Positions 6,899-42,470 of a stretch of DNA of 46,186 nt are shown here, one piece after another (the stretch's first letter is position 1; each line of letters begins with the position of its first letter). The position numbers and the translations under genes were made by a program. The notes beneath the pieces were generated by a model, which worked only from the letters and a program-made list of their open reading frames with translations, was not told the DNA's origin and did no database searches. Source of the DNA: an uncultured Eubacteriales bacterium (GTDB lineage Bacteria > Bacillota > Clostridia > Christensenellales > Aristaeellaceae); the NCBI GenBank assembly GCA_902765395.1, contig CACWZP010000030.1:1-46186 (forward strand), given 5' to 3'.

Positions 6899-7384
6899 AT
6901 GACCAAGCGCATCGCCCTGTACGCGGGCAGCTTTGACCCCTACACCAACGGCCACCACGACATCGTGAAGAAGGCCTGCGCCCTGTTCGACGAGGTGGTG
7001 GTGATGATCGCCGTGAACGTGCAGAAGAAGCGCTCCGGCGACGCCGAGGCCATGCGCGCCGCCATCCAGCAGGCCCTGGAGGCCGACGGGCTGGACAACG
7101 CCAGGGCCGTGGTCCACACCGGGCTGGTGGCGGACTACTGCGCCGAACACGGCATCGGCTGGTACGTGCGCGGACTGCGCAACAGCATGGACTACAACTA
7201 CGAGGAGAACCTGGCCCAGGTGAACCACCTGATCAACCCGGCCCTGGAGTCCATCTACCTGCGCAGCGACGAGCCCGCCGTGTCCTCCAGCATGGTGCGG
7301 GAGCTGATGGCGTTCGGGAAGGACGTCAGACAGTACGTCCCAGAGGCAATATACGTGCAATTGGAAATGAGGAATGAGGAATGA
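6899..7384 (+). CDS. coaD: Phosphopantetheine adenylyltransferase (CoaD)
   Basis: A 161-residue nucleotidyltransferase that adenylates 4'-phosphopantetheine to dephospho-CoA, the penultimate step of CoA synthesis. Signatures: GSFDPYTNGHHDIV near the N-terminus (T-x-G-H ATP motif), RGLRNSMDYNYE in the middle, and SSSMVREL (ISSTxxR-type) near residue 130. The ATG at 6899 is preferred because GGAGGG lies 5 nt upstream and the length then equals the family norm. Oddity: the last six residues (EMRNEE) and the stop are encoded by GGAATGA-type heptamers of the repeat element that begins here, so the native C-terminus has been rewritten by the element. Confidence 0.95.
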   Translation: MTKRIALYAGSFDPYTNGHHDIVKKACALFDEVVVMIAVNVQKKRSGDAEAMRAAIQQALEADGLDNARAVVHTGLVADYCAEHGIGWYVRGLRNSMDYNYEENLAQVNHLINPALESIYLRSDEPAVSSSMVRELMAFGKDVRQYVPEAIYVQLEMRNEE

Positions 7385-7508
7385 AATGCCCGGAAACGTG
7401 CAGTGTGGCAGCAGCATTGCGGCGCAACGCCGTCCCTGCAGGAAATTCAGATTCAAACAAATCCGGAAGGATTTGCTCCACAATTCCTCATTCCTAATTA
7501 TTCACAAT
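7363..7508. repeat. Heptamer-arm intergenic element, family B (coaD-rimO)
   Basis: The left arm (7363-7388) is built of GGAATGA-like 7-nt units; the right arm (7482-7508) is their inverted, degenerate counterpart (ATTCCTCATTCCTAATT). TGA occurs at 7368, 7375 and 7382, covering all three frames in 17 nt. The interior has a CAAATCC-GGAA-GGATTTG hairpin (7458-7475), also found in the family A element at 42412-42430, and a GCGGCGCAACGCCG segment. The element fills the gap from the coaD stop to 25 bp before rimO. Confidence 0.85.
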
Positions 7509-7533
7509 CGATCAGAAAAGAGTGTAACATCGC

Positions 7534-8868
7534 ATGAAAAAGGTTGGCATGGTCTCCCTGGGCTGCGCGAAGAACCGGGTGGACAGCGAAAACATGCTGG
7601 GCATGCTGCGGCAGAAGGGCTTTGAAATCGTCAGCGACCCCGCCGAGGCGGACGTGCTGTTCGTGAACACCTGCGGCTTCATCGAGAGCGCCAAGGAGGA
7701 ATCCATCGACGCCATCTTCGAAATGGCCCAGTATAAGAAGGGCCGTCCGGGCGTGAAGCTGTTCGTCACGGGCTGTCTGGCCCAGCGCTATCCCCAGGCG
7801 CTAATGAGCGAGATCCCCGAAATCGACGGCCTGCTGGGCGTGGCGGAGTACAGCCGCCTGTTTGAGATGATGGACGCGGCCCAGAAGGGCGACAAGCCCT
7901 GCTACACCGCCAACGGCGCGCGGTTTTTGAACACGCCCCGGGTGCTGACCACCCCCGGCTACAGCGCCTATGTGAAGATATCCGACGGCTGCGACAACCG
8001 CTGCACCTACTGCGCCATCCCGCTGATCCGCGGCGGCTACAGCTCCCGGCCCTTTGAGGACATCGTGGCCGAGTGCGAAAAGCTGGCGGGCGAGGGCGTG
8101 ACGGAGATCACGCTGATCGCCCAGGACACCAGCCGCTACGGCTGCGACCTGGGCGACGGGCACTATATGCTTCCGGAGCTGCTGGAGGCGGTGAGCGCCA
8201 TCGAGGGCATCCACTGGGTGCGGGTGCTGTACTGCTATCCCGACAGCACCGAGGACCGGCTGCTGGACGCCATCCGCGACCTTCCGAAGGTGGCCCCGTA
8301 CCTGGATCTGCCGCTGCAGCACATCGACGACGAGCTGCTCAAGCGCATGAACCGCCGCGGCAGCGCGGACTGGATCAAGAGCCGCATCGCCGAGTGCCGC
8401 AAGCGGGGCATCCTGCTGCGCACCACAATGATCGTGGGCTTCCCCGGCGAGACGGACGAGCAATTCCAAACCCTGCTGGACTTCGTGAAGGAGGCCCGCT
8501 TCGAGCGTTTGGGCGCGTTCACCTACTCCCCCGAGGAGGGCACCGCCGCGGCGAAGATGCCGGGGCAGATCGACGAAGCCGTGAAGAATGAGCGCATGGA
8601 CCAGCTGATGATGCTGCAGCAGGGCATCTCCATGGAGGTGAACGAAGCGCGCATCGGCAGCGAGTGCGAGGTGCTGGTGGACGGCTTCGACGAGGAGACC
8701 GGCCGCTTCTACGGCCGGAGCCTGCTGGAGGCCCCCGAGAGCGACGGCTGCATCTGGTTGAACGTCAACCCCGGGCTGAACGGCTCGGGCGACCTCACCC
8801 CCGGGCAATACGTGAACGTGCGCATCACCGGCGCGGACGCCTATGACCTGGAGGGAGAAATCATATGA
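7534..8868 (+). CDS. rimO: Ribosomal protein S12 methylthiotransferase RimO
   Basis: A 444-residue radical-SAM methylthiotransferase that adds a methylthio group to the conserved Asp of ribosomal protein S12. Three parts are visible: an N-terminal UPF0004 domain starting KKVGMVSLGCAKNRVDSE with cysteines for the auxiliary cluster (NTCGFIE, GCLAQRY), a radical SAM core with CDNRCTYC (Cys153, Cys157, Cys160), and a C-terminal TRAM domain (about 375-440). The SLGCAKN motif and the length separate RimO from MiaB. The Shine-Dalgarno is weak. The stop overlaps the pgsA start (ATGA), so the pair is translationally coupled, the order rimO-pgsA seen in many Firmicutes. Confidence 0.96.
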   Translation: MKKVGMVSLGCAKNRVDSENMLGMLRQKGFEIVSDPAEADVLFVNTCGFIESAKEESIDAIFEMAQYKKGRPGVKLFVTGCLAQRYPQALMSEIPEIDGLLGVAEYSRLFEMMDAAQKGDKPCYTANGARFLNTPRVLTTPGYSAYVKISDGCDNRCTYCAIPLIRGGYSSRPFEDIVAECEKLAGEGVTEITLIAQDTSRYGCDLGDGHYMLPELLEAVSAIEGIHWVRVLYCYPDSTEDRLLDAIRDLPKVAPYLDLPLQHIDDELLKRMNRRGSADWIKSRIAECRKRGILLRTTMIVGFPGETDEQFQTLLDFVKEARFERLGAFTYSPEEGTAAAKMPGQIDEAVKNERMDQLMMLQQGISMEVNEARIGSECEVLVDGFDEETGRFYGRSLLEAPESDGCIWLNVNPGLNGSGDLTPGQYVNVRITGADAYDLEGEII

Positions 8869-9419
8869 ACCTACCCAATAAATTGACGATACTGCGCGTG
8901 TGCCTGATCCCGTTCTTCGTGGTGTTCGCGAAGATGGGCGGCGCGGCCATGCAGGCGGTGGCCGTGGGCATCTACGTGCTGGCCTGCGTGACGGACGCAT
9001 TGGACGGGCGCATCGCCCGCAGCCGGAACCTGGTCACCAACTTCGGCAAGTTCATGGACCCCATCGCCGACAAGCTGCTGGTGATGAGCGCCATGATTGT
9101 GCTGGCGGCACAGGGCCGCATGCCCGACTGGGTGTGCATACTGATGCTGGGACGGGAGTTCCTGGTCAGCGGTTTTCGGCTGGTGGCGGTGGAAAACGGC
9201 GTGGTGATCGCCGCCGGACCGCTGGGCAAGCTGAAGACCGTGTTCCAGATGGTGTCCACCATCGCGCTGATGCTGCTGGTGCCCGTGGAGGGCGCGCCGC
9301 TGCTGGGCGAAGCCGGCAAGACCGTCGCCCAAGTCCTCATGTACATCGCCCTGGCCCTCACCGTCATAAGCGGCGCGGACTACATCATCCGCAACCGCGA
9401 GTGCATCAAGGACATGTGA
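8865..9419 (+). CDS. pgsA: CDP-diacylglycerol--glycerol-3-phosphate 3-phosphatidyltransferase
   Basis: A 184-residue integral membrane enzyme that makes phosphatidylglycerol phosphate, the committed step to phosphatidylglycerol. The CDP-alcohol phosphotransferase motif is complete: DALDGRIARSRNLVTNFGKF followed by MDPIADK, matching D-x2-D-G-x2-A-R-x8-G-x3-D-x3-D, just after the first membrane helices. The start LPNKLTILRV is typical of PgsA. It overlaps rimO by 4 nt. The next element begins 5 bp past its stop. Confidence 0.96.
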   Translation: MNLPNKLTILRVCLIPFFVVFAKMGGAAMQAVAVGIYVLACVTDALDGRIARSRNLVTNFGKFMDPIADKLLVMSAMIVLAAQGRMPDWVCILMLGREFLVSGFRLVAVENGVVIAAGPLGKLKTVFQMVSTIALMLLVPVEGAPLLGEAGKTVAQVLMYIALALTVISGADYIIRNRECIKDM

Positions 9420-9420
9420 A

Positions 9421-9518
9421 TGTAAATTAGGAATGAGGAATGAGAAATGAGGAATGAAGACAGCCAGTTGCCACACAGCTATTCAATTCCTTATTCCTCA
9501 TTCCTAATTCCTTATTAA
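9421..9518. repeat. Heptamer-arm intergenic element, family B (pgsA-GH3)
   Basis: The left arm (9425-9457) reads as consecutive 7-nt units GGAATGA, GGAATGA, GAAATGA, GGAATGA; the right arm (9485-9517) is the inverted set. Stops at 9423, 9428, 9434, 9441, 9448 and 9455 cover all frames. The spacer is only about 27 bp, so this is a minimal copy of the family. Confidence 0.85.
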
Positions 9519-9561
9519 TGAACCGAACCTCTGTCACGAACGAAGAAGAAAGGATGCTATC

Positions 9562-11976
9562 ATGAACAAGTGGTCCCGCATCAAATACCATCCCAACCTG
9601 CCCCTGGGCGCGGACGGCCGGAGGGTCACCGCCAGCCCGGAGCACATCCGCCTGAGCAAGGACGCCGCCCGGGAGGGCATGGTTCTCCTCAAAAACGAGG
9701 GCGGCGCGCTGCCGCTGAAGCAGGGCTGCAAGGTGGCCCTGTTCGGCAAGGGCACCTATGACTACGTGAAGGGCGGCGGCGGCAGCGGCGACGTGACCGT
9801 GCCCTACACCCGCTGCCTGGCCGAGGGCATGAAGCAGTACCCTGAGCGGGTGACGCTGTTCGAGGCCACCGACAAGTTCTACCGCGACCACGTGGCCGCC
9901 GGCTATGCCGAGGGCCGCGCCCCCGGCACCATCGAGGAGCCGGCGCTGCCGGACGAGCTGGTGGCGCGCGCCGCGGCCTTTGCCGACGCCGCCGTCATCT
10001 CCATCAGCCGCTTCTCCAGCGAGGGCTGGGACCGCAAGAGCGCCTTTGACAGGATCGAGCAGCACAAGGGCGTGTGGGTGGACGACGCCCGCTACCAGCT
10101 GACCGAGGCCATCTTCGTGAAGGGCGACTTCTATCTCACCGACGGCGAGGCCGCCATGGTGGAGAAGGTGAAGGCCGCGTTCAAGACCGTGATCGTGGTG
10201 CTGAACGTGGGCGGCGTGTTCGACACCTCCTTCTTCAAGGACGAGCCGCGCATCCAGGCGGCGCTGATGGGCTGGCAGGCGGGCCTGGAGGGCGGCCTGG
10301 CCGAGGCGGAGCTGCTGCTGGGCATCGTCAGCCCCTCCGGCAAGCTGGCGGACACCTTCGCCGCCACGCTGGAGGACTACCCCTCCTCCCCCAACTTCTA
10401 CGAATCCGACGAGTTCGTGAACTACGAGGACGACATCTACGTGGGCTACCGCTACTTCGAGACCATCCCCGGCGCGGCAGCGAAGGTGAACTATCCCTTC
10501 GGCTACGGCCTGAGCTATACGACGTTTGATGTGGACAACATCGCCATGTGCGAATCGGACGGCCAGATCGTCGCCCGGGCCACCATCACCAACACCGGCA
10601 GCGTGCCCGGCCGCGAGGTCGTACAGGTCTACTTCTCCGCGCCCCAGGGCAAGCTGGGCAAGCCCGCCCGCCAGCTGGCCGGCTGGAAGAAGACCCGGCT
10701 GCTGCAGCCCGGCGAGAGCCACCGGGTGGAGATCCGCTTCCCGGTGGAGCAGATGGCCTCCTACGACGACCTGGGCAAGGTCCAGGTGTCCGCGTGGGTG
10801 CTGGAGGCGGGCGAATACCGCTTCTTCCTAGGCACCGACGTGCGCGCGCCGCAGGCGGATTTCGCCTGGACGCTCGCCGAAGACCGCGTGGTGGAGCAGC
10901 TGACGAAGCGCATGGCGTCCAACCAGCTGACCCGGCGGATGCTGTCCGACGGCAGCTACGAGGCCCTGCCCACCGGCGAGCCCTTCGACACCGACGCCAG
11001 CGCGCTGCCCCACATGACCCATGATGAGACCAACTGCATCAGCCCGGCGGTGCGGCCGCATGAGCGGGTGGCCTTCCTGCTTGAGAACCCCCGCCGCCAG
11101 CTGATCGAGGTGGCCGAGGGCAAGCTGAGCCTGGACGAATTCATGGCCCAGCTGTCCGACGAGGACCTGGCCTGGCTGCTCAGCGGCACGCCCAACGAGG
11201 GCGTGGCCAACACCTTCGGCTACGGCAATCTGCCGGACTTCGGCGTGCCCAGCGCCATGACCGCCGACGGCCCCGCGGGCCTGCGCATCCAGCCGGAGGT
11301 GGGCGTGTCCACCACGGCCTTCCCCTGCGCCTGCCTGCTGGCCTGCACCTGGGACAGCGAGCTCACCGAGGCGGTGGGCCGCGCCGCGGGTGAGGAGGTC
11401 AAGGAGAACAACATCGGCGCCTGGCTGGCCCCGGGCGTGAACATCCACCGCAACCCCCTGTGTGGCCGGAACTTTGAGTACTACTCCGAGGACCCGCTGC
11501 TCACCGGCCACCTGGCGGGCGCGCTGGTGCGGGGCGTGCAGTCGAACGGCGTGGCCGCCACGGCCAAGCACTTCGCCCTGAACAACAAGGAGACCAACCG
11601 CATGGACTGCGATTCCCGGGCCTCCGAGCGCGCCATCCGCGAGATCTACATCAAGGCCTTTGAGATCATCGTGAAGCAGTACGACGTGTGGAGCATCATG
11701 ACCAGCTACAACGTCATCAACGGCCACCGCGCCAGCGAGAACGCTGACCTGCTGAACGGCATCCTGCGCGGCGAGTGGGGCTATGAGGGCCTGGTCACCA
11801 CCGACTGGTGGACCCACGGCGAGCACTACAAGGAGTGCGCCGCCGGCAACGACATGAAGATGGGCTGCGGCTATCCCGACCGGCTGCTGGCGGCCGTGGA
11901 AAAGGGCGCGCTCACCCGCGAGCAGATGCTCACCGCCGCCCGGCACATCCTGGGGATGATCCTGAAGCTGGATTAG
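9562..11976 (+). CDS. Glycoside hydrolase family 3, domain-permuted beta-glucosidase-like
   Basis: An 804-residue cytoplasmic enzyme (no signal peptide). The domain order is reversed relative to classic GH3: first the alpha/beta sandwich domain (about 25-300, starting MVLLKNEGGALPL), then a fibronectin III-like domain (about 330-440), then a GH3 (beta/alpha)-barrel (about 530-804). The barrel carries TADGPAGLR, NIHRNPLCGRNFEYYSEDP, ATAKHFALNNKETNR and the nucleophile Asp748 in GLVTTDWW. This arrangement is known from Ruminococcus albus and Butyrivibrio beta-glucosidases. Expected action is exo-cleavage of beta-glucosides or related oligosaccharides taken up by the cell. It lies 142 bp after pgsA with the repeat element between; a good ribosome-binding site (AAGAAAGGAT) precedes the ATG. 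Confidence 0.93.
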   Translation: MNKWSRIKYHPNLPLGADGRRVTASPEHIRLSKDAAREGMVLLKNEGGALPLKQGCKVALFGKGTYDYVKGGGGSGDVTVPYTRCLAEGMKQYPERVTLFEATDKFYRDHVAAGYAEGRAPGTIEEPALPDELVARAAAFADAAVISISRFSSEGWDRKSAFDRIEQHKGVWVDDARYQLTEAIFVKGDFYLTDGEAAMVEKVKAAFKTVIVVLNVGGVFDTSFFKDEPRIQAALMGWQAGLEGGLAEAELLLGIVSPSGKLADTFAATLEDYPSSPNFYESDEFVNYEDDIYVGYRYFETIPGAAAKVNYPFGYGLSYTTFDVDNIAMCESDGQIVARATITNTGSVPGREVVQVYFSAPQGKLGKPARQLAGWKKTRLLQPGESHRVEIRFPVEQMASYDDLGKVQVSAWVLEAGEYRFFLGTDVRAPQADFAWTLAEDRVVEQLTKRMASNQLTRRMLSDGSYEALPTGEPFDTDASALPHMTHDETNCISPAVRPHERVAFLLENPRRQLIEVAEGKLSLDEFMAQLSDEDLAWLLSGTPNEGVANTFGYGNLPDFGVPSAMTADGPAGLRIQPEVGVSTTAFPCACLLACTWDSELTEAVGRAAGEEVKENNIGAWLAPGVNIHRNPLCGRNFEYYSEDPLLTGHLAGALVRGVQSNGVAATAKHFALNNKETNRMDCDSRASERAIREIYIKAFEIIVKQYDVWSIMTSYNVINGHRASENADLLNGILRGEWGYEGLVTTDWWTHGEHYKECAAGNDMKMGCGYPDRLLAAVEKGALTREQMLTAARHILGMILKLD

Positions 11977-12103
11977 TCGGCAGGGCGGGTCGAGCGCAGG
12001 GCGCTCGACCCCATTCGCTGCCGCCGGGGCATCGCCCCGGACCCCAATCGCTGCCGCGCGGAATATGGGATGTTCAATCCCTTTCGCTGCCGCACTCTGC
12101 AAC

Positions 12104-12142
12104 CGACCCCCGTGCGCCACTGGTTCAAGCGCACGGGGGTCG
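12104..12142 (-). repeat. Conserved-loop hairpin, copy 1
   Basis: A perfect 14-bp stem CGACCCCCGTGCGC / GCGCACGGGGGTCG flanks an 11-nt loop which on the minus strand reads TTGAACCAGTG. The loop matches the other three copies, while the stem is entirely different. Upstream in the same gap (11977-12100) are several GCTGCCGC spacers and small stems such as GGGGC-ATC-GCCCC. Confidence 0.85.
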
Positions 12143-12178
12143 CGTTTGTGGGAATAGGATTGCCGCGCAATCAACACA

Positions 12179-12211
12179 ATTTCCCGCGCCAATGATTCAA
12201 GCGCGGGAAAT
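12179..12211 (-). repeat. Conserved-loop hairpin, copy 2
   Basis: A perfect 11-bp stem ATTTCCCGCGC / GCGCGGGAAAT with an 11-nt loop which on the minus strand reads TTGAATCATTG, one base from the consensus TTGAATCAGTG. Confidence 0.85.
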
Positions 12212-12319
12212 CTCTGTTGCAGCAAGATCGCGCGAGCGCAAGGTACTCAACCCAATTCGACGTCGCCCGGCACATCATGGGGATGATTTTGAACATCCCT
12301 CGCTGCTCCCCTATCACAG

Positions 12320-12474: not shown

Positions 12475-12475
12475 C

Positions 12476-12733: not shown

Positions 12734-12747
12734 CTGTTGTTGTTACC

Positions 12748-13011: not shown

Positions 13012-13012
13012 A

Positions 13013-13057: not shown

Positions 13058-13089
13058 TCTTTTGGATTAATTCACTGGGGATGGTAATA

Positions 13090-14375: not shown

Positions 14376-14420
14376 TTTTCATATCATAAAGAATGACCCT
14401 GCATACGGCACCAAAGCGAA

Positions 14421-20641: not shown

Positions 20642-20891
20642 GAGTTTAGAGTGGAGATTGGTGAGTATGATGAGAGCATTTCCCTGTTGATTGTTTCACG
20701 TGAAACATCAGGAATGCTGGTGAAACTCACCGAAGAGCTGCATTTCGCATTGTTTCACGTGAAACATCGGGTTTTGTGGCGGTTTACATCGACATTCCTC
20801 GAAATACATTGTTTCACGTGAAACAATGCGTTGTGCACACGCTCTGGTTCAAACTAATCTAAACTCTTAACTCTTAACTCCAAACTCTAAC
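20638..20891. repeat. Heptamer-arm intergenic element, family A, enclosing parS
   Basis: The left arm (20639-20662) carries TGAGAGTTTAGAGTGGAG; the right arm (20850-20890) is the inverse type with TCTAAACTCTTAACTC, a further TTAACTC and AAACTCT. It starts at the stop codon of the upstream gene and ends 39 bp before the next start. The interior consists almost wholly of the three parS sites and 43-bp spacers. Confidence 0.8.
20692..20825. promoter_or_regulatory. parS centromere array, three sites at 59-bp spacing
   Basis: TGTTTCACGTGAAACA, the 16-bp palindrome bound by ParB/Spo0J, occurs perfectly at 20692-20707, 20751-20766 and 20810-20825. Both intervals are exactly 59 bp, and the 43-bp spacers have unrelated sequence. 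ParB loading here would organise the origin region for segregation. dnaA is about 8 kb away. No parA or parB gene is in the window. Confidence 0.97.
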
Positions 20892-26146: not shown

Positions 26147-26162
26147 CAAATCAAGAGCAGGA

Positions 26163-26395
26163 ATTTAGAGTTCAGAGTTGAGAGTTTAGATGAGATGGCC
26201 CGAAAACCGGATTGCCACGGCCTTCGGCTTCGCAATGACGTCTTACATGATAAAGGATCTGATCTCCTGCAGATACATTCACCGAATTAAGATCAACGTC
26301 ATTTCGGGAGGGCTATGCAAATATTCCGACGTGTCAATCAGGTTCTCCTGCGTTCTTTATCTAAACTCTCAACTCTTCACTCTCAACTCTCTTCA
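26163..26395. repeat. Heptamer-arm intergenic element, family A (dnaN-mnmE)
   Basis: Arms lie at 26163-26192 (TTTAGAGTTCAGAGTTGAGA) and 26360-26395 (inverse type, TCTAAACTCTCAACTC and CACTCTCAACTCT). Read along dnaN, the arm begins exactly at the dnaN stop codon; stops fall at offsets 0, 10, 16, 24, 32 and 36, covering all frames. The other arm ends 16 bp before the mnmE start. The roughly 165-bp interior has no gene. Confidence 0.85.
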
Positions 26396-27505
26396 GTTTG
26401 TCGCTCCCGTCCGCACCGGCAGCACCAGGTGCACGTAGTCGGAATCGCCCACGGGCGTGATGATGCAGGGGCTGATGGCGTTGTTCAGGTTGATCTCGAT
26501 CTGATCGGCGTCGATGAACCGCACCACGTCGATCAGGTATTTCACGTTGAAGGCGATGTTCAGGTTCGCGCCCTCCTGCTGCACGTCCAGCTTCTCGTAC
26601 ACGTCGCCGATCTGGCTGTGGGCCTCGATGGCCATCTCGCCGTCCGCGATCTTCAGGATCAGCAGGTTGTTGTTGCCCTCACGGGCGATCAGCGCGGCGC
26701 GGTCGATGCCCCTGCGGAAGGGCTCCAGCTCCACCACCACGCGGGTGGCGAAGCGCGGCGGCAGGATCTGGCGGTACTGCACGTACTCGCCCTCCACCAG
26801 GATCACGTAGATGTCGGTCTTCTCCAGCTTGATGTGCAGCTTGCCGCCGCCGAAGGACAGCGTGGCGAAGGCCTCGGGATCATCGGAGAGCAGCTTGCCG
26901 ATATCTCCCACGGCGCGGCCCGGGATGATGGCGCTCAGCTTCTCCAGCACGTCGCCGCACTTGGCCCGCTTCATCGCCAGCCGGAAGCCGTCCAGCGCCA
27001 CCATGGTCACGTCCCCGTTTTCCACCTCCAGCAGGCACCCGGTCAGCACCTCGCGCATGTCCTCCACGGCGATGGCGAACTCGGTCTTCTGGATCATGTC
27101 CTTCAGCATGTCCTGGGGCAGGGAAATCTCCTTCTCGCCGCTGATGGCGGGCAGGGCGGGGTAGAGGTCGGCGTCCTGGCCGGCGATGTTGGTGCGGTTG
27201 CCGGAGCCGCGGATGGTGAACATGAAGCGGTCGCTCATGGTGATCTCGATGTCGCCGTCGGTCAGGCGGCGTACGATCTCGTTGAACAGCTTGCCCGGCA
27301 CCACGCCCCGGCCCGGTTCGGTCACGTAGGCCTCCATCCGGGTGACGATGGTGATGCGCTCGTCGGAGCAGGTGAGGATGACCTCGTTCATATCCGTCTC
27401 CACCAGGATGCCCTCCAGGATCTGGTTGGGCGTGCGGGTGGGCAGTGCCTTGGTGACGATTTGCAGCGCGTCGATCAATGTCGCAGCTGAGCAGGTGAAT
27501 TTCAT
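26393..27505 (-). CDS. dnaN: DNA polymerase III beta subunit (sliding clamp)
   Basis: A 370-residue protein forming the ring-shaped clamp that tethers polymerase to DNA. It starts MKFTCSAATLIDALQIVTKA, with the family blocks PNQILEGILVE, PGKLFNEIVRRL, a central ATDGFRL-like VALDGFRLAMKR, and the C-terminal CIITPVGDSDYVHLVLPVR, close to the YLVMPIR-type end. Three clamp folds fit the length. AAGGAGGA precedes the ATG by 8 nt. It follows dnaA across the oriC unwinding region in the standard order; recF and gyrB, often next, are absent. Confidence 0.97.
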   Translation of the reverse strand: MKFTCSAATLIDALQIVTKALPTRTPNQILEGILVETDMNEVILTCSDERITIVTRMEAYVTEPGRGVVPGKLFNEIVRRLTDGDIEITMSDRFMFTIRGSGNRTNIAGQDADLYPALPAISGEKEISLPQDMLKDMIQKTEFAIAVEDMREVLTGCLLEVENGDVTMVALDGFRLAMKRAKCGDVLEKLSAIIPGRAVGDIGKLLSDDPEAFATLSFGGGKLHIKLEKTDIYVILVEGEYVQYRQILPPRFATRVVVELEPFRRGIDRAALIAREGNNNLLILKIADGEMAIEAHSQIGDVYEKLDVQQEGANLNIAFNVKYLIDVVRFIDADQIEINLNNAISPCIITPVGDSDYVHLVLPVRTGATN

Positions 27506-31090: not shown

Positions 31091-32677
31091 ATGAGTTATC
31101 AGGCATTGTACAGGGCGTGGCGGCCGGACACGTTCACCGAGATCGTCGGCCAGGATGCCGTGGTGCGCACGCTGAAGCGCCAGGTGATGACGGGGCACAT
31201 CGCCCACGCCTATCTGTTCTGCGGCACCCGCGGCACCGGCAAGACCAGCGCGGCCAAGGTGCTGTCCCGGGCCATCAACTGCCTGAACCCCAAGGACGGC
31301 GACCCCTGCGGCGAATGCGAGATTTGCAAGGCCCTCAAGGCGGAGACCAGCATGGACGTGGTGGAGATCGACGCCGCGTCCAATAACGGCGTGGACGAGA
31401 TCCGCGACCTGCGAGAGAAGATCAAGTATCCCCCGGCGCTGACGAAGTACAAGGTATACATCATCGACGAGGTGCACATGCTGTCCACCGGCGCCTTCAA
31501 CGCGCTTTTGAAGACATTGGAGGAGCCCCCGGCCCACGCCGTGTTCATACTGGCCACCACCGAGCCCCAGCGCCTGCCGGCCACGATCCTCTCCCGCTGC
31601 CAGCGGTTCGATTTCCACCGCATCGGCGTGGAGACCATCGTGGAGCGGCTGATGGTGGTGCTGGGCGGCATCGGCAGGACGGCCTCCGAGGAGGCGTTGA
31701 TGGAGATCGCCCGGGCGGCGGAGGGCGCCATGCGCGACGCGCTGAGCCTGCTGGATGTGTGCCTTTCCTACACCGACGGCGAGGTCTCCGGCCAGCTGGC
31801 CCGGGACGTGCTGGGCACGGCGGGCCGGGCCGCGATGTTCGACTTCGCCGACGCGCTCATCGACGGCGATGCCGGCTCGGCGCTTGTGCAGATCGATCAG
31901 GTGATGCGCCGGGGCAGCGACCCCCAGGTGTTCATCCGGGACACCGTGGCCCACCTGCGGGGCATCCTGCTGGCCGGGGCCGTGGGCGAGGGCCTGGCGG
32001 AGATCATGGAGATCACCCCCGAGGACGCCGCCCGCTTTGCCGAACAGGCGAAGAAGATCGGCCCCGAGGCGCTCAACCGCATGCTGGACCTGTTCATGCG
32101 GGCCGAGCCGGACACCAAGTGGGCCTCCCGCCCGCGCACGATCCTTGAGCTGGCCGCCGTGCGCGCCTGCCACCCGGAGAAGGAGCCGGACGCCGCCATG
32201 GCAGAGCGGCTGGAGCGGGTGGAGAAGCTGATCGAGAGCGGCGCGGCGGCAAGGCCGGCGAAGGCCGCTCCCGCCAGGTCCGCCGAAAAGGCGGAAAAGC
32301 CCGCGGAAAAATCCGCCCCGAAGGCCGCGCCCACCCCCGGCGAGACCCCGCCCCAACCGTACCTGGACGCCATCGCCGCGCTGCAGGAGGAGAACCCCTC
32401 CATCCGCCAGCCGCTGGAGTCCATGCGGTTCATCCGCTTCGACGGCCGCCAGGTGGTGGTGGAGTTCAGCAAGAAGAGCATGATGCACATGAAGCTGCTG
32501 GAGCGCAAAAAGCCTCTGATCGAGGGCGCGCTGACCGACGCCTTCGGCACTCCCGTCAGCCTGTCCATGAACCAGGAAGGCGGCGCGGCGCAAAAACCCG
32601 TCTCCGACGTTGCCCGGGACGTCATCAATCAAGCCTATGACGTGTTCGGCCGGGATAAGACCAGCGTGGAAGAGTAA
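31091..32677 (+). CDS. dnaX: DNA polymerase III subunits gamma/tau
   Basis: A 528-residue AAA+ clamp-loader ATPase. The start at 31091 (SYQALYRAWRPDTFTEIVGQ) is preferred; GGGAGGT lies 7 nt upstream and the longer frame adds 22 unrelated residues. Walker A is GTRGTGKT (45-52); the zinc-binding cysteines lie in CLNPKDGDPCGECEIC; Walker B is YIIDEVHML; the sensor region is ATTEPQRLPATILSRCQRFDF. The C-terminal third (about 385 on) is an Ala/Lys/Pro-rich linker and a tau-like tail that would contact the polymerase. The next gene is the RadC-like one rather than ybaB-recR. Confidence 0.96.
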   Translation: MSYQALYRAWRPDTFTEIVGQDAVVRTLKRQVMTGHIAHAYLFCGTRGTGKTSAAKVLSRAINCLNPKDGDPCGECEICKALKAETSMDVVEIDAASNNGVDEIRDLREKIKYPPALTKYKVYIIDEVHMLSTGAFNALLKTLEEPPAHAVFILATTEPQRLPATILSRCQRFDFHRIGVETIVERLMVVLGGIGRTASEEALMEIARAAEGAMRDALSLLDVCLSYTDGEVSGQLARDVLGTAGRAAMFDFADALIDGDAGSALVQIDQVMRRGSDPQVFIRDTVAHLRGILLAGAVGEGLAEIMEITPEDAARFAEQAKKIGPEALNRMLDLFMRAEPDTKWASRPRTILELAAVRACHPEKEPDAAMAERLERVEKLIESGAAARPAKAAPARSAEKAEKPAEKSAPKAAPTPGETPPQPYLDAIAALQEENPSIRQPLESMRFIRFDGRQVVVEFSKKSMMHMKLLERKKPLIEGALTDAFGTPVSLSMNQEGGAAQKPVSDVARDVINQAYDVFGRDKTSVEE

Positions 32678-32699
32678 AAATACGAAAGGCGGCGGTGTT

Positions 32700-33461
32700 G
32701 TGCCAAACGCAAAAGTGGGCCGCCCCGTCTGGGAGGGCCACCGGAAGCGGCTGCGCCAGCGCATGGAGCGGGAGGGCTGGGACGCCCTGCGGCCCCACGA
32801 GATGGTGGAGCTGGTGCTGAACTACGCCGTGCCGCGGCAGAACCTGTCCGACGTGGCCCGGGCGCTGGTGGCGCAGTTTGGCTCGGTGGGCAGCGTGTTC
32901 TCCGCCGACCGGGAGCAGCTTCTGGCCGTGGAGGGCATGACGCAGACCCTGGCGGAGTGGGTGGAGATCACCGGCGGGCTGATGCGCGCCTACTACGACA
33001 TCCACGCCGAGAGCGACCAGCGCCTGTCCTGCTTCCAGGAGGTGCTGGCGTTTTTGAAGCCCCGCCTGGCGGACGCGGCGGTGCCGGGTCTGTGGGCGCT
33101 CTATGCCGATTTCGACTTCAACCTGATCACCTACAGCGACTTCGGCTCCCCCGACGACTGTTGGAACGGGACCGTGGCCCGGCGCATGATGGTGGAGGCC
33201 ATCAACAGCGACGCGCGCTATGTCTATCTGGTGCGGTTCGTCGACGAAGCGCCGCTGTCGCTGCCGGAGGGCGACCTGACCCGGCTCCAGGCGTTGTCTG
33301 AAACCCTCCGCGCCGCCGACATCGACCTGGTGGACTGCGTGCTCTGTGATGGGCGCGAGGTCGCCAGCCTGCGCCTCGTGGGCCGGCTCAAGGTGGAGGA
33401 GGGCGACGCGAGGATGCTGGCGCTGAGGGAGCAGTATGAGGGAACAGGGAGCAGGGAGTAG
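32700..33461 (+). CDS. RadC-like protein without the JAB metal site
   Basis: A 253-residue protein from GTG 32700 (AAAGGCGG 7-10 nt upstream). The N-terminal third is a helix-hairpin-helix region of the RadC/UPF0758 type (GHRKRLRQRMEREGWDALR, then FGSVGSVFSADREQLLAVEG). The C-terminal domain aligns with the RadC JAB/MPN fold, but where RadC has HNHPSGDPxPSxxD this protein has FVDEAPLSLPEGDLTRLQAL: both His are gone and only the final Asp remains. The end (VDCVLCDGREVASLRLVGRL) matches RadC's last strands. It is therefore a probable non-catalytic relative, perhaps binding DNA. It follows dnaX by 22 bp. Confidence 0.75.
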   Translation: MPNAKVGRPVWEGHRKRLRQRMEREGWDALRPHEMVELVLNYAVPRQNLSDVARALVAQFGSVGSVFSADREQLLAVEGMTQTLAEWVEITGGLMRAYYDIHAESDQRLSCFQEVLAFLKPRLADAAVPGLWALYADFDFNLITYSDFGSPDDCWNGTVARRMMVEAINSDARYVYLVRFVDEAPLSLPEGDLTRLQALSETLRAADIDLVDCVLCDGREVASLRLVGRLKVEEGDARMLALREQYEGTGSRE

Positions 33462-33583
33462 GAAAAGTGGCTGCCGCAAAGACAGCAGGAGCGGCGTTGC
33501 GCCGCCCGCCCGGCGAAACCGGAATGGCGGTTGGCGCGATGCCTTTGGAAGCGCCGCCATATAAAACCACCCATAACATTTTT

Positions 33584-36412: not shown

Positions 36413-36437
36413 TTATCATCGTTAAAGAGGTTTATCT

Positions 36438-37706: not shown

Positions 37707-37718
37707 ACCGTGAAACAG

Positions 37719-37751
37719 CGGGGACGCCCACAAGGGCGTCCCCGTTCTCTT
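37719..37751 (+). terminator. Hairpin after the deacetylase homologue
   Basis: CGGGGACGCCC (37719-37729) and GGGCGTCCCCG (37734-37744) form an 11-bp stem with an ACAA loop, followed by TTCTCTTT. It lies 13 nt after the stop. Confidence 0.75.
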
Positions 37752-37897
37752 TGAGGCGTAACAGCGCTTCCCAAAAGCCTTCCTCCGGTGGGAAAGGTGG
37801 CAATTGCCGAATTTGCGAGACAAATGACGAATGAGGTCCCCGTCCCCCTTGCCTCCCCTTCCAAGAGGAGGTGTTAAGGGCCGGAGGGGTTAGGGGA

Positions 37898-38145
37898 ACC
37901 GAAGAACGGTTCTTTTTTGGCGGCCTGCGCTCGCTGTTCAGTGAAGCTTCGCGTTCGGCACCACGCGCCGAGCCGCTCACTTCAATTCACGACTCGGCAG
38001 GCCGCCGCTGCATGGGGGAACAGCGAGGGATGAAGCAGTCCTGCATGGAGTGCCCCACCGCCCCTTCGGGGCACCTCCCCATTGAGATGGGGAGGCTTTT
38101 GGTTTGCGCATAATTGTCTGTAGGGGCGGCGTTGCGCCGCCCGCC
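37898..38145. repeat. Inverted copies of the dispersed repeat modules
   Basis: A GAACCG-AAGAA-CGGTTC-TTTTTT hairpin (37898-37918) leads into GGCGGCCTGC (37919-37928) and GCAGGCCGCC (37997-38006), the module of 12320 and 24575 in the opposite orientation. Then follow a CCTCCCCATTGAGATGGGGA module (38075-38110, inverted relative to 29347) and a TGTAGGGGCGGCGTTGCGCC block. No gene is seen between 37707 and 38287. Confidence 0.8.
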
Positions 38146-38215
38146 CAATACGACGCGCTGTGTTGTCCCCAACGGGCTTCGTTGCGCCGTCTCCCCGGCC
38201 TCCTCAAATCTTCCC

Positions 38216-38244
38216 TTGCATTTTCCGAAAATATCCGCTATACT
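38216..38244 (+). promoter_or_regulatory. Sigma-A promoter of the lacI-type gene
   Basis: TTGCAT (38216-38221) and TATACT (38239-38244) are separated by 17 bp, about 40 nt before the ATG; GAGGAGG supplies the ribosome-binding site. Confidence 0.78.
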
Positions 38245-38287
38245 CAGTAGGACGAAACCGTTTTAGAGTTCCCGAGGAGGTTATTCC

Positions 38288-39310
38288 ATGTCCGTCACCA
38301 TCAAGGATGTCGCGCGCAGCTGCGGCCTGTCCATATCCACCGTCAGCAAGGTCTTCAACGGCTATCCCGACATCAGCGAGGCCACGCGCCGCCAGGTGAT
38401 GGACGCGGCCCGGGAGATCGGCTATCGGCCCAACGCCCTGGCCCGGGCGCTGAAGACGAACCGCAGCTACAACCTGGGCGTGCTGTTCGTGGACGACAAC
38501 ATCTCCGGCCTGACCCACCCCTTCTTCGCCGCAGTGCTGAACGCCTTCAAGGCCGAATCCGAGCGCCAGGGCTATGACATCACCTTCATCAACCACAACA
38601 TCGGCACCATGGAGATGACCTACCTGGAGCACTGCCGCTATCGCAACGTGGACGGCGTGTGCCTGGCCTGCGTGGATTTCTATTCCAGGGAAGTGGCCGA
38701 GCTGGTGGAGAGCGGCATCCCCTGCGTCACCATCGACCACATGTTTTCCAGCCACCCCTCCATCATCTCCGACAACCTGAACGGCATCCACATGCTGGTG
38801 GACCGGGCCGTGGCGCTGGGGCACCGGCGCATCGCCTATATCCACGGCCAGCGCAACTCCCTGGTCACCGAAAACCGCATCCGGGGCTTCAAGCGGGCCA
38901 TGGAATACCACGGCCTGGCCATCCCGGAGGGCTATGTGGCCCAGGGCCGATATGACGACCCGGAGAGCATCCGGCCCGTCATCCAGGCGCTGCTGAACCG
39001 GAAGGATCGGCCCACCTGCATCCTCATGCCCGATGATGCCGCCTATATCGGCGCGCTGGAGGCCCTGCGGGAAATGGGGCTTCGGGTGCCCCAGGACATC
39101 TCCCTGGCCGGCTATGACGGCGTGCGCTCCATGCAGGCGCTGCATCCCCGGCTGACCACCGTGCGCCAGGACAGCGACGCCATGGGCCGGGAGGCCGCCA
39201 AGCGGCTCATCGACCACATCGTCCACCCCGCCACCTCCCTGCGAGACCCCGTGCTCATCCCCTCCGAGTTGATGGAGGGAGAGTCCCTGGGGAGGAATAA
39301 CCCGGCGTGA
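38288..39310 (+). CDS. LacI/GalR-family transcriptional regulator
   Basis: A 340-residue repressor. The N-terminal HTH and hinge are textbook: VTIKDVARSCGLSISTVSKV, then FNGYPDISEATRRQVMDAA and IGYRPNALARALKTNRS. The periplasmic-binding-type core (about 62-335) includes GVLFVDDNISGLTHPFFAAV, DGVCLACVD, VTIDHMFSSHPSIISDNLNG, the GHRRIAYIHG strand and SLAGYDGVRSMQALHPRLTT VRQD near the end. It should bind a sugar-like ligand and control carbohydrate genes, but no transporter or glycosidase sits beside it; targets may include the GH3 or solute-binding genes elsewhere. It has its own promoter. Confidence 0.93.
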   Translation: MSVTIKDVARSCGLSISTVSKVFNGYPDISEATRRQVMDAAREIGYRPNALARALKTNRSYNLGVLFVDDNISGLTHPFFAAVLNAFKAESERQGYDITFINHNIGTMEMTYLEHCRYRNVDGVCLACVDFYSREVAELVESGIPCVTIDHMFSSHPSIISDNLNGIHMLVDRAVALGHRRIAYIHGQRNSLVTENRIRGFKRAMEYHGLAIPEGYVAQGRYDDPESIRPVIQALLNRKDRPTCILMPDDAAYIGALEALREMGLRVPQDISLAGYDGVRSMQALHPRLTTVRQDSDAMGREAAKRLIDHIVHPATSLRDPVLIPSELMEGESLGRNNPA

Positions 39311-39516
39311 CCCCTCGCAAATTCAGGCCAAAGCGCCAATCGTCCAGATAAACAAGCCTGGGAACCGGATCGCTCCGTCGTTCTGCGACGCGGCCATCCG
39401 GTTCTCGATATTCTGACCTCTAAACGCTATACTCTGAACGCTCATCCCTGTTCCCCGCACCCTTTTGCGGCGCTCGGCGTATGATACGTTGAACCCCATG
39501 AAAGGAGTTGCTGTCA

Positions 39517-40113
39517 ATGGCAAAGAACAATCGCTGCGGCTGCGGATCGCGCCGCAATAACAATAATGGCTATGGCTGCCTGAACTGCGTGGGCGGCCGG
39601 TATCGCTGGGACGACTATCCCTATTACCCCGGCCCCTGCCCGGACGTGAACGGCTGCTATGACAACGACAACGACGACGATGAGAATTGCGAGTGCCGTC
39701 GCCGCCGCCATCGCCGCCGGGGGCGCTGCGACTTCGGCCTGTTCATGGCCATGCTGCCCATGGCGGTGACCGCCAACGGCATCATCCCCCTGACCAACAA
39801 CAACTGCCTGATCGACAACGGCTTCCCGGTGAACAGCGGCCTGATCACCATCGAGGAGAGCGGCACCTACCTGGCCACCTACACCGTGCGCGTGCCCGAG
39901 GGCGCGGCGCTGGATTCCACCATCACGCTGAACGTGAACGAGGCCAGCCAGTCCTCCGCCATCGCCCAGGCGAACGGTTCGTCCACCACCGCCCAGGCCA
40001 TCTTCGACGTCAACGACCGCGCCACCCTCACCATGCGGTCCTCCGAGGCCATCAACATCACCGAATCCTCGGCCCAGCCGCTGTTCACGCTCTCGCTGGT
40101 CAAGCTGGACTGA
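39517..40113 (+). CDS. Cys/Asn-rich surface protein with BclA-like C-terminal domain
   Basis: A 198-residue protein; the ATG at 39517 has AAAGGAG 10 nt upstream. The N-terminal 70 residues are low complexity: Cys-, Asn-, Gly-, Tyr- and Arg-rich with an acidic DNDNDDDENCECRRRRHRRR tract, no signal peptide. The C-terminal 125 residues form a jelly-roll-like beta domain resembling the C-terminus of BclA-type exosporium proteins: GIIPLTNNNCLIDN, SGLITIEESGTYLATYTVRV, LNVNEASQSSAIAQA and LFTLSLVKLD. A disulfide-linked spore coat or exosporium role is plausible. It stands alone, with GC hairpins after it. Confidence 0.7.
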   Translation: MAKNNRCGCGSRRNNNNGYGCLNCVGGRYRWDDYPYYPGPCPDVNGCYDNDNDDDENCECRRRRHRRRGRCDFGLFMAMLPMAVTANGIIPLTNNNCLIDNGFPVNSGLITIEESGTYLATYTVRVPEGAALDSTITLNVNEASQSSAIAQANGSSTTAQAIFDVNDRATLTMRSSEAINITESSAQPLFTLSLVKLD

Positions 40114-40131
40114 AATAAACTTCCCCACCAC

Positions 40132-40296
40132 GGGGCGCGGCGCCTGCCGCGCCCCCAGACCGCCGACAAAGCCCGCAAACGCAGAAATTCCCTGAAATAC
40201 CGCTGCGCGGAGGGAATTTCTGCTTCCTGTGTCAGGACAGCCTGCCAATTTCGGTTACTTACGCTTGTGTAAGCGCCCTCATTGGCAGGCTGTCCT
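40132..40296. terminator. Three successive hairpins after the BclA-like gene
   Basis: GGGGCGCGGC/GCCGCGCCCC (40132-40155), GCAGAAATTCCCT/AGGGAATTTCTGC (40181-40223) and AGGACAGCCTGCCAAT/ATTGGCAGGCTGTCCT (40234-40249/40281-40296) are all perfect. The last has an inner CGCTT-GTGT-AAGCG stem. One or more probably end transcription. The rest of the gap to 40514 shows only a promoter. Confidence 0.7.
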
Positions 40297-40380
40297 TCCT
40301 TGGCTTGCAGGCTTTGTCCACGGCCTGTCAGTCTGTTGGCTTTGTCAACATCCTGATGGCGCCTGCCGCGCCCCTTTTCG

Positions 40381-40409
40381 TTGACTTTTGATGGACATTC
40401 TGTTATACT
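40381..40409 (+). promoter_or_regulatory. Sigma-A promoter of the deacetylase-dut operon
   Basis: TTGACT (40381-40386) and TATACT (40404-40409) are separated by 17 bp. The leader is about 100 nt, ending in GAGGGGGG before the ATG at 40515. Confidence 0.85.
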
Positions 40410-40514
40410 TTATGCACCATAACTGGAAGTATGCCCTCTGGCCGCCCTGTGGGCGGGCGGGCGCTTCCCATCCCATTTTGTTTTGTGCCGCGCAGGCATT
40501 GAGGGGGGTTCAAT

Positions 40515-41849
40515 ATGCCGAATCGCTACAGCAGGCCCATGGTTTCCCGGGCAAGGCGCCGCGCCATGGATCGCAAGCGGCTGATCATCGGCGGCGGCGC
40601 GCTGGCGGCGCTGGTCGTGGTGCTGCTGGTGGTGCTGCTCATTCCCAAGGGCGGCCATCCGGATAACTCCGTGGAGGCGGTCGCTCCCGCGGCCACCCCC
40701 GAACTGACGGCGGCGCCCGTGGTGGAGGCCGAGCCGGAGATCGAGGCGGAGCCCCAGACGCCCACGCCCGAGCCCGCGCCCACGCCGGATCCCGATATGT
40801 CCGCGCTGGCCGCCCAGCGCGCGCTGACCCGCCCCACACCCACGGCGGAGGGCTTCATACCCGTGTTCTCCAAGGCCGAAACCGAGGAAAAGATCATCGC
40901 CATCACCGTGGACGACTGCTTCCAGGCCGACAACCTCCAGCAGATCGTGGACAAGGCCATCGAGTGCGACGCGAAGCTGACCATCTTCCCCATCGGCAAG
41001 AACGTGATCCGCTCCAAGCACAAGCAGATTTTGAAGTACGCCTGGGAAAACGGCATGGAGCTGGAGAACCACACCATGACCCACTCGGGCCTGTTCAACC
41101 TCACCGCGGACAAGCTGGCCGAGCAGGTGTACATGCAGCAGATGGCCCTCAGTTACATACTGGGCGTGGAATACCAGTGCCACTTCCTGCGCCCCCGCGG
41201 CGGCGACGCCCGCAAGGACCAGCGCATGCAGATGTACGCCAAGCAGATGGGCTACTATGGCATCGCCCACTGGTCGGCGGACGGCAAGTACGACGACAAC
41301 AAGCTGGCCAAGTGGCTGAAGCCCGGCGCCATATACCTGTTCCACACCACCGATACCGACCTGGACAAGCTGCTGCGCTTCATCCCCTGGGTGAAGGAGA
41401 AGGGCTACCAGATGGTGACGCTGAACGAGATGTTCGGCTATCCCGAAAACGAGACCAGCGAGCTGACCATCCCCATCTCCGAGCACGTGATTCCGCCGCT
41501 GGAGCCCTATGAGATGGTGTATGTGCCGCTGAAGGCCACCACCTATTCCTGGGAGGCCTATCTGCTCCAGGAAAAGCTGATCGCGCTGGGCTACCTGGAC
41601 GGCAAGCCGGACGGCGTCTACGGCCCGGGCTGCGCCAAGGCCATCGCCAAGTATCAGCAGGATCACGGCATGGAGGCCAACGGCGTGGCCGACGCCGACC
41701 TGGTGCGCACCCTGCTGGAGACCGACACCGGCGCGCCTTCGACCGGCGGCGTGACCGATGATTCGGAGGAGGACGAGAGCGCCTATGCCGACGATGCCGC
41801 CGACACCGCCGGGGAGGACGCCGCCTCCGAAGAGGGCACGGGCGCATGA
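40515..41849 (+). CDS. Membrane-anchored polysaccharide deacetylase with PG-binding domain
   Basis: A 444-residue type II membrane protein: helix at about 23-44, Pro/Thr/Glu linker (about 50-110), NodB-type deacetylase domain (about 125-315), peptidoglycan-binding domain (YLLQEKLIALGYLDGKPDGV region) and an acidic C-terminal tail (SEEDESAYADDAADTAGEDA). Catalytic residues are intact: Asp133-Asp134 in ITVDDC, His186 and His190 in ENHTMTHS (zinc), FLRPRGGD and His277 in YLFHTT. It should remove N-acetyl groups from peptidoglycan or another wall glycan outside the cell. Its paralogue at 36438 shares all domains but not the catalytic residues. It overlaps dut by ATGA. Confidence 0.9.
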   Translation: MPNRYSRPMVSRARRRAMDRKRLIIGGGALAALVVVLLVVLLIPKGGHPDNSVEAVAPAATPELTAAPVVEAEPEIEAEPQTPTPEPAPTPDPDMSALAAQRALTRPTPTAEGFIPVFSKAETEEKIIAITVDDCFQADNLQQIVDKAIECDAKLTIFPIGKNVIRSKHKQILKYAWENGMELENHTMTHSGLFNLTADKLAEQVYMQQMALSYILGVEYQCHFLRPRGGDARKDQRMQMYAKQMGYYGIAHWSADGKYDDNKLAKWLKPGAIYLFHTTDTDLDKLLRFIPWVKEKGYQMVTLNEMFGYPENETSELTIPISEHVIPPLEPYEMVYVPLKATTYSWEAYLLQEKLIALGYLDGKPDGVYGPGCAKAIAKYQQDHGMEANGVADADLVRTLLETDTGAPSTGGVTDDSEEDESAYADDAADTAGEDAASEEGTGA

Positions 41850-42340
41850 GCCGCGTGGCGCGCTTCATGCGCGTGAGCGGCGAGCGCTTCAGGGCGGACT
41901 GGCAGGACGCCTTTCCCGGCGCGCCCGTCCCGGATTTCCCCGAACTGCCCCGGCGGGCCACGGCCTTCTCCGCGGGCTACGACTTCTTCGCTCCCGCGGC
42001 GTTCAGCCTTGAGAGCGGCGAGACGATCAAAATCCCCACCGGCGTGCGCGCGCGCATCGACGGCGGCTGGGTGCTGATGCTGTTCCCCCGGAGCGGACTG
42101 GGCTTCAAGTACCGCCTGCGGTTGGACAACACCGTGGGCGTCGTGGACGCGGACTACTTCGGCGCGAAGAACGAGGGCCACATCTTCGTCAAGCTCACCA
42201 ACTGCGGCGAAAAGCCCCTGTCCGTCGCGGCCGGCGAGGCCTTCTGCCAGGGCGTGTTCCTGCCCTATGGCCTCACCGAGGACGACGCCGCCGAGGGCTT
42301 GCGGATCGGCGGATTCGGAAGCACGAACGCTGAGAGTTAA
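41846..42340 (+). CDS. dut: dUTP diphosphatase, trimeric dUTPase family
   Basis: A 164-residue enzyme hydrolysing dUTP to dUMP. Five dUTPase motifs can be followed: SAGYDFFAP (motif 1), PRSGLGFKY (2, phosphate-binding RSG), LDNTVGVVDADYFG (3, catalytic Asp and Tyr), GEAFCQGVFLPY (4) and RIGGFGST (5, C-terminal lid). The 4-nt overlap with a wall deacetylase gene is an unusual pairing. The last residues and TAA come from the heptamer arm that begins here, immediately after the motif 5 lid. Confidence 0.92.
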   Translation: MSRVARFMRVSGERFRADWQDAFPGAPVPDFPELPRRATAFSAGYDFFAPAAFSLESGETIKIPTGVRARIDGGWVLMLFPRSGLGFKYRLRLDNTVGVVDADYFGAKNEGHIFVKLTNCGEKPLSVAAGEAFCQGVFLPYGLTEDDAAEGLRIGGFGSTNAES

Positions 42341-42470
42341 GAGTTGAGAGTTTAGAGTTTAATGTTGGCCGGGGAACCGCATTGGCTCCTTCTTATTCCC
42401 AAAAAACAAAACAAATCCCGCAGGGATTTGCGCCGCAACTAAACTCTGAACTCTATTCTCTAAACTCTGC
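42331..42470. repeat. Heptamer-arm intergenic element, family A (dut-nucleotidyltransferase)
   Basis: The left arm (42331-42362) has units GAGTTAA, GAGTTGA, GAGTTTA, GAGTTTA; the right arm (42439-42470) is inverted (CTAAACTCTGAACTCT and CTCTAAACTCT). Stops at 42331, 42338 and 42345 cover all three frames in 17 nt; more follow at 42353 and 42360. The interior holds CAAATCCC-GCA-GGGATTTG (42412-42430), the hairpin shared with the family B element at 7458. Confidence 0.88.

Follow-up and report, generated by a model that had tools for sequence, protein, structure and literature searches.

Five short elements, each framed by inverted arms made of tandem 7-nt units, separate protein genes in a stretch of 46,186 nucleotides (positions 1 to 46,186 of contig CACWZP010000030.1, assembly GCA_902765395.1; hereafter the window) from an uncultured Eubacteriales bacterium of the Aristaeellaceae. 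They are probably non-autonomous derivatives, lacking an open reading frame (ORF), of a class of mobile elements that carry an IVP/S23p gene. In its full-length form the class is simple: an inverted heptamer arm, one PF05635/TIGR02436 gene (S23p, a four-helix bundle) and an inverted arm, mostly 430-570 bp in all (range 346-667 in 49 paired loci). This architecture recurs across phyla and in intervening sequences (IVSs) of rRNA genes; the arms go with the tree of the IVP proteins that they enclose, the elements sit at the side of stop codons, and one clean insertion is available. Two arm families are present in the window, A (units GGAATNA) and B (GAGTTNA). Its elements are tied to the gene-bearing ones because their arm families are the same and because an inner hairpin resembles the 3' end of two gene-bearing elements, L403 and L407. 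As no PF05635 ORF lies between the arms of the window elements, and the genome to which the window belongs (G000, 3.38 Mb) has no PF05635 match, we call them derivatives and not full members of the class.

The gene between the arms

ORFs enclosed by two arms of one and the same family include 23S_rRNA_IVP (PF05635) in one congener and in one Bacteroidaceae metagenome-assembled genome (MAG). Arms were considered strictly paired when they were inverted period-7 arrays within 450 bp of the gene, with consensus sequences within one mismatch, and the 30 loci of each genome sample were the best-scoring PF05635 matches, not a random draw. Far genomes were represented by 20 array loci hand-picked from at least 117 stretches, spread across many phyla of a genome contig collection, that contain three exact family A units (among 80 such stretches examined, 26 have a pair of arrays, purine-rich on the left and pyrimidine-rich on the right, and 54 have none). 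Forty-nine of the 90 loci turned out to be strictly paired (25/30 in the genus, 12/30 in far genomes, 12/30 in the phylum), as did 9 of 15 plasmid loci (hand-picked from 31 records) and 4 of the 5 loci obtained from viral contigs; a tblastn search of a phage collection of 50,697 records gave no IVP match. As for controls, period-7 paired arms were seen in 12 of 2253 and 1 of 1072 random windows and around none of 52 control genes (RimO 0/21 and phosphoesterase 0/23 in the genus, RimO 0/8 elsewhere), one of which had unmatched arrays on both sides, and control periods 5, 6 and 8-11 produced 2 pairs in 6x47 tests. At the level of genomes, PF05635 is matched in 20 of 28 from the genus, in 17 of the 19 far ones picked for their arrays, in 56 of 299 from the phylum sample (48 over the cut-off) and in 0 of 14 control genomes.

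The gene has a preferred direction. It runs with the gene whose stop precedes it in 28 of the 49 paired loci (3 of these by a longer-ORF rule) and against it in 2, the remainder having genes that end at both arms (10) or at neither (9); at annotated plasmid loci it is co-directional with both neighbours in 11 of 13 cases, and not in 2. A need for co-transcription or a bias of insertion may account for this. Profile matches to Avd of diversity-generating retroelements (DGRs), below curated cut-offs (DivGenRetAVD, 4.8e-6 and 26.8 bits for a cut-off of 80; bAvd, 4.7e-5 and 24.3 bits for a cut-off of 40), suggest that PF05635/S23p is a distant relative of DGR Avd. Three loci of cyanobacterial plasmids (L493, L496, L503) have their IVP genes between CRISPR genes (cas6/cas4, cas10/cmr3).

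Arms that follow their gene, and an insertion

In a tree of 27 proteins from 30 loci, with arm families labelled by eye, 10 changes of arm family are required (the minimum being 9), for 18.4 after shuffling and never as few in 200 shuffles. Nearest neighbours share their arm family in 18 of 27 cases (3.1 when shuffled) and their host in 0 of 27, and families D, E, F and A are clustered. The gene is under purifying selection, to judge from dN/dS values of 0.03-0.17 (9/14 pairs where dS is computable, dS being often near saturation). As a case in point for mobility, locus L504, on plasmid C of Trichormus, is a clean insertion when compared with the empty loci L508 and L509 (flanks 96-99% identical): GTAAT is found exact on both sides of this full-length element and amounts to a 5-bp target duplication, within which the upstream gene has its TAA stop (the BLAST overlap is 8 bases with one mismatch). 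Other inserts or repeats are present in L510 and L512. The inner termini of ORF-less copies can also be compared with the ends of IVP elements: 35 of 114 score above every shuffled sequence, 33 of them matching the right ends of L403/L407, and 79 do not exceed the best shuffle.

Intervening sequences of 23S rRNA

In three genomes (G154, G214, G279), multi-copy PF05635 matches fall within 23S rRNA genes. Period-7 arrays stand at both ends of the inserts of the first two; in the third (L474) the right arm was detected and the left one recognised by eye, and the IVP gene of G279 is itself interrupted by an ORF-less heptamer element. A study of Coxiella burnetii describes an IVS of comparable build, a 428-nt insert with terminal inverted repeats (28-bp stem) and an S23p ORF, beside which are tandem heptamers with a degenerate last base; it also cites mobile-element hypotheses for IVSs and reports that rRNA IVSs are excised from RNA by RNase III (PMC4990558). 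Inverted heptamer arms are common to the window elements and to three PF05635-bearing rRNA IVSs. The setting differs: IVSs lie within rRNA helices, whereas the present elements adjoin stop codons in the DNA that separates protein genes, are numerous and for the most part have no ORF. Searches of open-licence PMC papers showed no work connecting S23p/IVP with heptamer arms as a general feature.

Heptamer elements in the genome and its relatives

A pattern search of G000 allowing at most two mismatches gave 112 forward and 117 reverse matches to family A, against 3 for the reversed pattern, and 88 + 91 matches to family B, against a background of 48 for the reversed pattern, itself a period-7 pattern. 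In 61 sequences of this genome (525,813 bases, picked around array matches, plus the whole window), pairs of arms have the polarity of terminal inverted repeats 57 times and the opposite polarity once, so that the inverted arms which a sequence-only reading had noticed in the window are a genome-wide trait of both families. Read from its flush end, each unit begins with a fixed hexamer, AGGAAT in family A and AGAGTT in family B, and closes with one variable base, nearly free in family B (T63 G46 C41 A35 in 185 units) and distributed as G137 T67 C24 A1 in 229 units of family A. The arms of a pair are largely independent at this base, because its complementarity between arms is weak, whether aligned from the innermost units (A, 21/99 vs 14.1 expected, P 0.003; B, 20/78 vs 18.8) or from the outermost (A, 18/99 vs 14.1, P 0.08; B, 27/78 vs 19.2, P 0.028); templating of one arm by the other was rejected on this account. 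Between G000 and its congener G018, family A units show 3/55 substitutions at the variable base and 7/330 elsewhere, too few to judge constraint.

With genes called by simple codon usage, 52 of the 57 paired elements in G000 have co-directional neighbours, 4 have convergent and 1 has divergent neighbours; all junctions in the same sequences number 332, 39 and 46, respectively. For the 52 co-directional cases the distance from arm to upstream stop has a median of 0 nt (quartiles -7 and 10) and does not exceed 25 nt in 47; the stop codon lies within the arm in 25, and the downstream start is at a median of 40 nt. The tie to gene ends, noticed on five elements, is thus seen beyond the window. It could come from a survival filter as well as from targeting.

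Many other unit types share this architecture in the genus (GGAGTNA, GGGAGNA, GGGAACA, GGGATNA, GGANAAT, GGAGNGT and others). In sequences of 11 species, neighbouring arrays are purine-left/pyrimidine-right 105 times, the reverse twice and in the same direction 4 times, one family forming both arms in 74 of the 105 pairs; in a scan of periods 4-15, the only peaks apart from multiples of 3, which coding DNA is expected to give, are 7 and twice 7. Allowing at most one mismatch, a search of 80 genomes found family A in 26 (its own, 23 of 27 congeners and 2 others) and family B in 21 (its own, 19 congeners and 1 other). Orthologous sites were scored by eye as same, different or empty. G018, with 97% RimO protein identity to G000, has the same element at 10 of 18 placeable sites (both arms of element 2 are identical there), another heptamer family at 3 and none at 5, with 3 more sites partly placed. 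G013 has an element at each of its 10 placed sites, one of another family in 6 cases, and 2 further sites could be placed in part. At the coaD/rimO junction, too, the heptamer family varies from species to species, and several species have none there. The suggestion of a mobile-type class in which several unit sequences follow one design is supported by this presence and absence among relatives, including the 5 sites in G018, and by the association with gene 3' ends; reoccupation of sites by other heptamer families also argues for mobility. Stacked arms, with several families adjoining or nested, are visible in L233 (G010) and L213:14893-15110 (G013).

Alternative explanations

To be sure, a number of observations weigh against deriving the window elements from IVP elements. 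PF05635 has no match in G000, an assembly 95.9% complete, nor in G018, so that the mobiliser would be missing there, have been lost, or fall in an assembly gap. Among the 19 array-bearing far genomes, 2 also lack it, one of them an archaeal MAG, and IVP is not known to have a catalytic site. Outside the genus strict pairing is limited to 12/30 loci in each sample, the remainder having arrays on both sides, one side or no side in 4, 10 and 4 far loci and in 7, 5 and 6 phylum loci. In G000, 42 further arms have no scripted partner, many with a degenerate partner visible by eye. Families B and J, with two rows each, are not clustered in the IVP tree, and hairpins of ORF-less copies give no clear signal of orientation (7 distal-only, 3 proximal-only). 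Only L504 has a clean duplication, other filled/empty pairs breaking near gene ends in a ragged manner, and no clean empty site for the window or G000 copies was seen among the sites placed in congeners. Two sites fit a single insertion poorly. Between the arms of element 3 are sites TGTTTCACGTGAAACA, which we take to be parS; 18 congeners have parS-type sites with no arms visible by eye, and arms bracket them in G000, G018 and G013. At L074:12097 the inner repeat looks conserved and the arm family differs in G013.

Miniature inverted-repeat transposable elements (MITEs) are short, with inverted ends and no ORF. The window elements look like them, being short and ORF-less with terminal inverted repeats, and the alternative that survives best, if an unlikely one, is that they are ordinary MITEs moved by some unnamed transposase, the IVP gene being merely a frequent passenger. 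The 5-bp target duplication, the many ORF-less copies and the missing IVP match in G000 would suit this explanation; the tracking of the IVP tree by arm families would not, nor would the recurrence of PF05635 as the ORF within arms, across phyla and inside 23S rRNA. No transposase with matching ends is found among the matches listed in the retrieved loci: IVP ORFs were seen there and a single DDE ORF, the sole DDE transposase between B arms (L117:1069-2330, in G021), which by eye looks like an insertion sequence within the left arm. An autonomous form with a DDE transposase was rejected, this being its one case. REP/REPIN-RAYT systems also combine many short intergenic inverted-repeat elements with a rarer gene-bearing form. 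Their gene, RAYT, encodes a Y1 transposase, in place of which the present elements have PF05635, flanked by arms of tandem heptamers.

The elements might instead be RNA structures used by the host, such as 3'-end hairpins or processing and termination sites, that evolve in concert and do not move. Three window elements folded as RNA do have strong predicted hairpins (z of -4.2, -7.7 and -5.5), placement after stop codons would be appropriate, the element is common to G018 at 10 of 18 sites, and most of the heptameric G-rich repeats of PMC4692102 are transcribed, according to that paper. We nevertheless hold this account to be improbable, in view of the sites in G018 that by eye have no heptamer element (5/18) or another family (3), and of a cargo gene that is under purifying selection.

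The sequence-only reading itself had proposed that the units are selected to block translation in all frames and from both sides, as insulators between genes, with a variable base that in family B keeps a stop. Units of families A and B often hold stops, to be sure, the upstream stop is within the arm in almost half of the co-directional cases (25/52), and all-frame stops have been remarked for TAACTGA repeats (PMC4679880); yet the idea is very improbable. The variable base is frequently C (41/185 units in B, 24/229 in A), and such a unit has no forward stop; nor is three-frame coverage a rule, as the outer three units stop all frames in just 10 of the 48 arms that enter a gene and 7 of the 44 that leave one. 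On the strand entered by ribosomes the mean number of frames stopped is no higher than after permutation of unit columns (2.12 vs 2.35 in A, P 0.74; 1.77 vs 2.11 in B, P 0.66), an outcome that the sequence-only reading had itself named as refuting its view. On the opposite strand the observed means are above the permuted ones, though not significantly (1.07 vs 0.30 in A, P 0.17; 1.82 vs 0.76 in B, P 0.14). Units with C are not depleted in gene-entering as compared with gene-leaving arms (A, 11/114 vs 13/115; B, 20/106 vs 21/79). Some other families stop fewer frames on average (GGGAACA 0.67 over 6 arrays, GGGAAAA 1.00 over 4, GGAGAAT 1.54 over 13), and the stop-poor GGGAACA arms keep the same architecture and placement, the IVP elements that bear them (L385, L400) also adjoining gene ends. 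Selection for stop codons was rejected on the grounds of unit permutation, of entering versus leaving arms and of the low stop content of other families; the stops are best read as a by-product of unit sequence. The features that recur are the 7-nt period and the link to a PF05635 gene.

Least credible of all are simple-sequence repeats grown by slippage, or G-quadruplex (G4) motifs: graded arrays in G013 and the differences in unit number that separate G000 from G018 recall them, while the polarity of inverted pairing (57:1) excludes slippage as the sole cause, a gene is linked to the arms, and 7, with its double, stands alone among periods not divisible by 3. By eye, GAGTTNA units have no GG and GGAATNA units only GG, hence no GGG tracts for G4; some congener families, GGGAACA among them, do contain GGG.

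How such elements may move

Within the derivation from IVP elements that we favour, IVP would recognise its own arm family and take part in insertion, and ORF-less copies would be either moved in trans or relics. Copies located after stop codons would persist because an insert at that place damages neither neighbour, or because insertion favours it, and full copies there have the same reading direction as the upstream gene. Stops within units would follow from the unit sequence and would not be the selected trait.

Tandem heptamers have been described before, in other terms. In Xanthomonas and Nostoc, PMC4692102 presents G-rich heptameric repeats of GGGNATC type, with one variable base and a preference for four units, mostly between aligned ORFs and near or overlapping stops; inverted pairs number 70 and 75 in the genomes of two Xanthomonas and are few in Nostoc. 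They resemble the window elements as intergenic tandem heptamers near stop codons; they are treated there as G4-forming simple repeats, and 'S23' is absent from the main text, as far as it is accessible. TAACTGA repeats of Beggiatoaceae, cyanobacteria and Bacteroidetes are also intergenic heptamers, some overlapping upstream stop codons, and differ in being mostly direct (one set is inverted) and mostly just upstream of starts, a regulatory role having been proposed; the accessible part of that paper has neither 'S23' nor 'intervening sequence' (PMC4679880). It is tempting, if somewhat less likely than not to be right, to unite all these as footprints of a transposase-free class of bacterial elements, in which an Avd-like four-helix-bundle protein would recognise a co-evolving 6+1 heptamer hairpin and drive insertion next to stop codons, the Xanthomonas, Nostoc and Beggiatoaceae repeats and the 23S rRNA IVSs being its traces. 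The seventh base, under loose constraint, might in that case serve as a spacer, or be added without template whenever an arm is synthesised. Should the derivation from IVP elements hold, a common and unexplained gene family ('four helix bundle protein', S23p) would gain a role, and rRNA intervening sequences, heptameric repeats and MITE-like repeats at gene ends would become one element class without a known catalytic enzyme; it would also be plain why a gene in these genomes may end on a stop codon supplied by a repeat.

Elements and neighbouring features of the window

Coordinates in Table 1 are whole-window positions and gene names were read by eye from translations. Elements 1 to 5 are flanked by what we take to be coaD/rimO, pgsA/GH3-type, metallophosphoesterase/radical-SAM-type, dnaN-type/mnmE and dut/nucleotidyltransferase-type genes. 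They lie roughly where the sequence-only reading had placed them and have the units that it gave; all five are between co-directional genes, elements 1 and 5 have the upstream stop codon within an arm, and an inner CAAATCC...GGATTTG hairpin is indeed common to both families. Its figure of about four units per arm holds for both arms of elements 2 and 4, but not for the left arm of element 3, which has 2.

Table 1. Heptamer arms and associated features of the window
Feature	Positions	Strand	Remarks
Element 1, left arm	7364..7384	+	Family A (GGAATNA), 3 units; stop codon of coaD (6884-7384) within last unit
Element 1, inner hairpin CAAATCCGGAAGGATTTG	7458..7475	+	Resembles 3'-end hairpin of IVP-bearing family A elements L403, L407
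Element 1, right arm	7481..7494	-	Family A, 2 clear units and a degenerate stretch
Element 2, left arm	9430..9457	+	Family A, 4 units; pgsA stop 10 nt upstream
Element 2, right arm	9484..9511	-	Family A, 4 units
Element 3, left arm	20642..20655	+	Family B (GAGTTNA), 2 units; immediately 3' of stop codon 20639-20641
TGTTTCACGTGAAACA, three exact copies (at 20692, 20751, 20810)	20692..20825	+	Between element 3 arms
Element 3, right arm	20860..20887	-	Family B, 4 units
Element 4, left arm	26161..26188	+	Family B, 4 units
Element 4, right arm	26362..26389	-	Family B, 4 units; 3 nt from stop of minus-strand dnaN-type gene (26393-27478)
Further one-sided array	33431..33463	+	GGGAACA/GGGAGNA type; contains stop of ORF 32610-33461; followed by AGTGGCTGCCGC
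Element 5, left arm	42334..42361	+	Family B, 4 units; contains stop codon of dut (41846-42340)
Element 5, inner hairpin CAAATCCCGCAGGGATTTG	42412..42430	+	Between arms
Element 5, right arm	42440..42453	-	Family B, 2 clear units; degenerate units on to 42467

The one-sided array was absent from the list made by the sequence-only reading, and no right arm was recognised for it by eye. Degenerate units resembling family B occupy an intergenic region at 39428-39460. The only Rfam match in the window at gathering thresholds is a partial 16S rRNA gene, of which the start (45795-46186) is present and the rest is cut off by the window end. The parS-type sites have a 59-nt spacing, and their proximity to mnmE and a dnaN-type gene suggests an origin-proximal region; the congeners compared at this junction mostly carry one to four such sites. 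Other repeat families are nested within arms, of the types GATTGCCACG...GCAATGACG and GATCCTTC...AGGATGAC, at positions 26190-26360 of the window and in L071:14102-14325, L132:963-1216 and L074:12097-12324.

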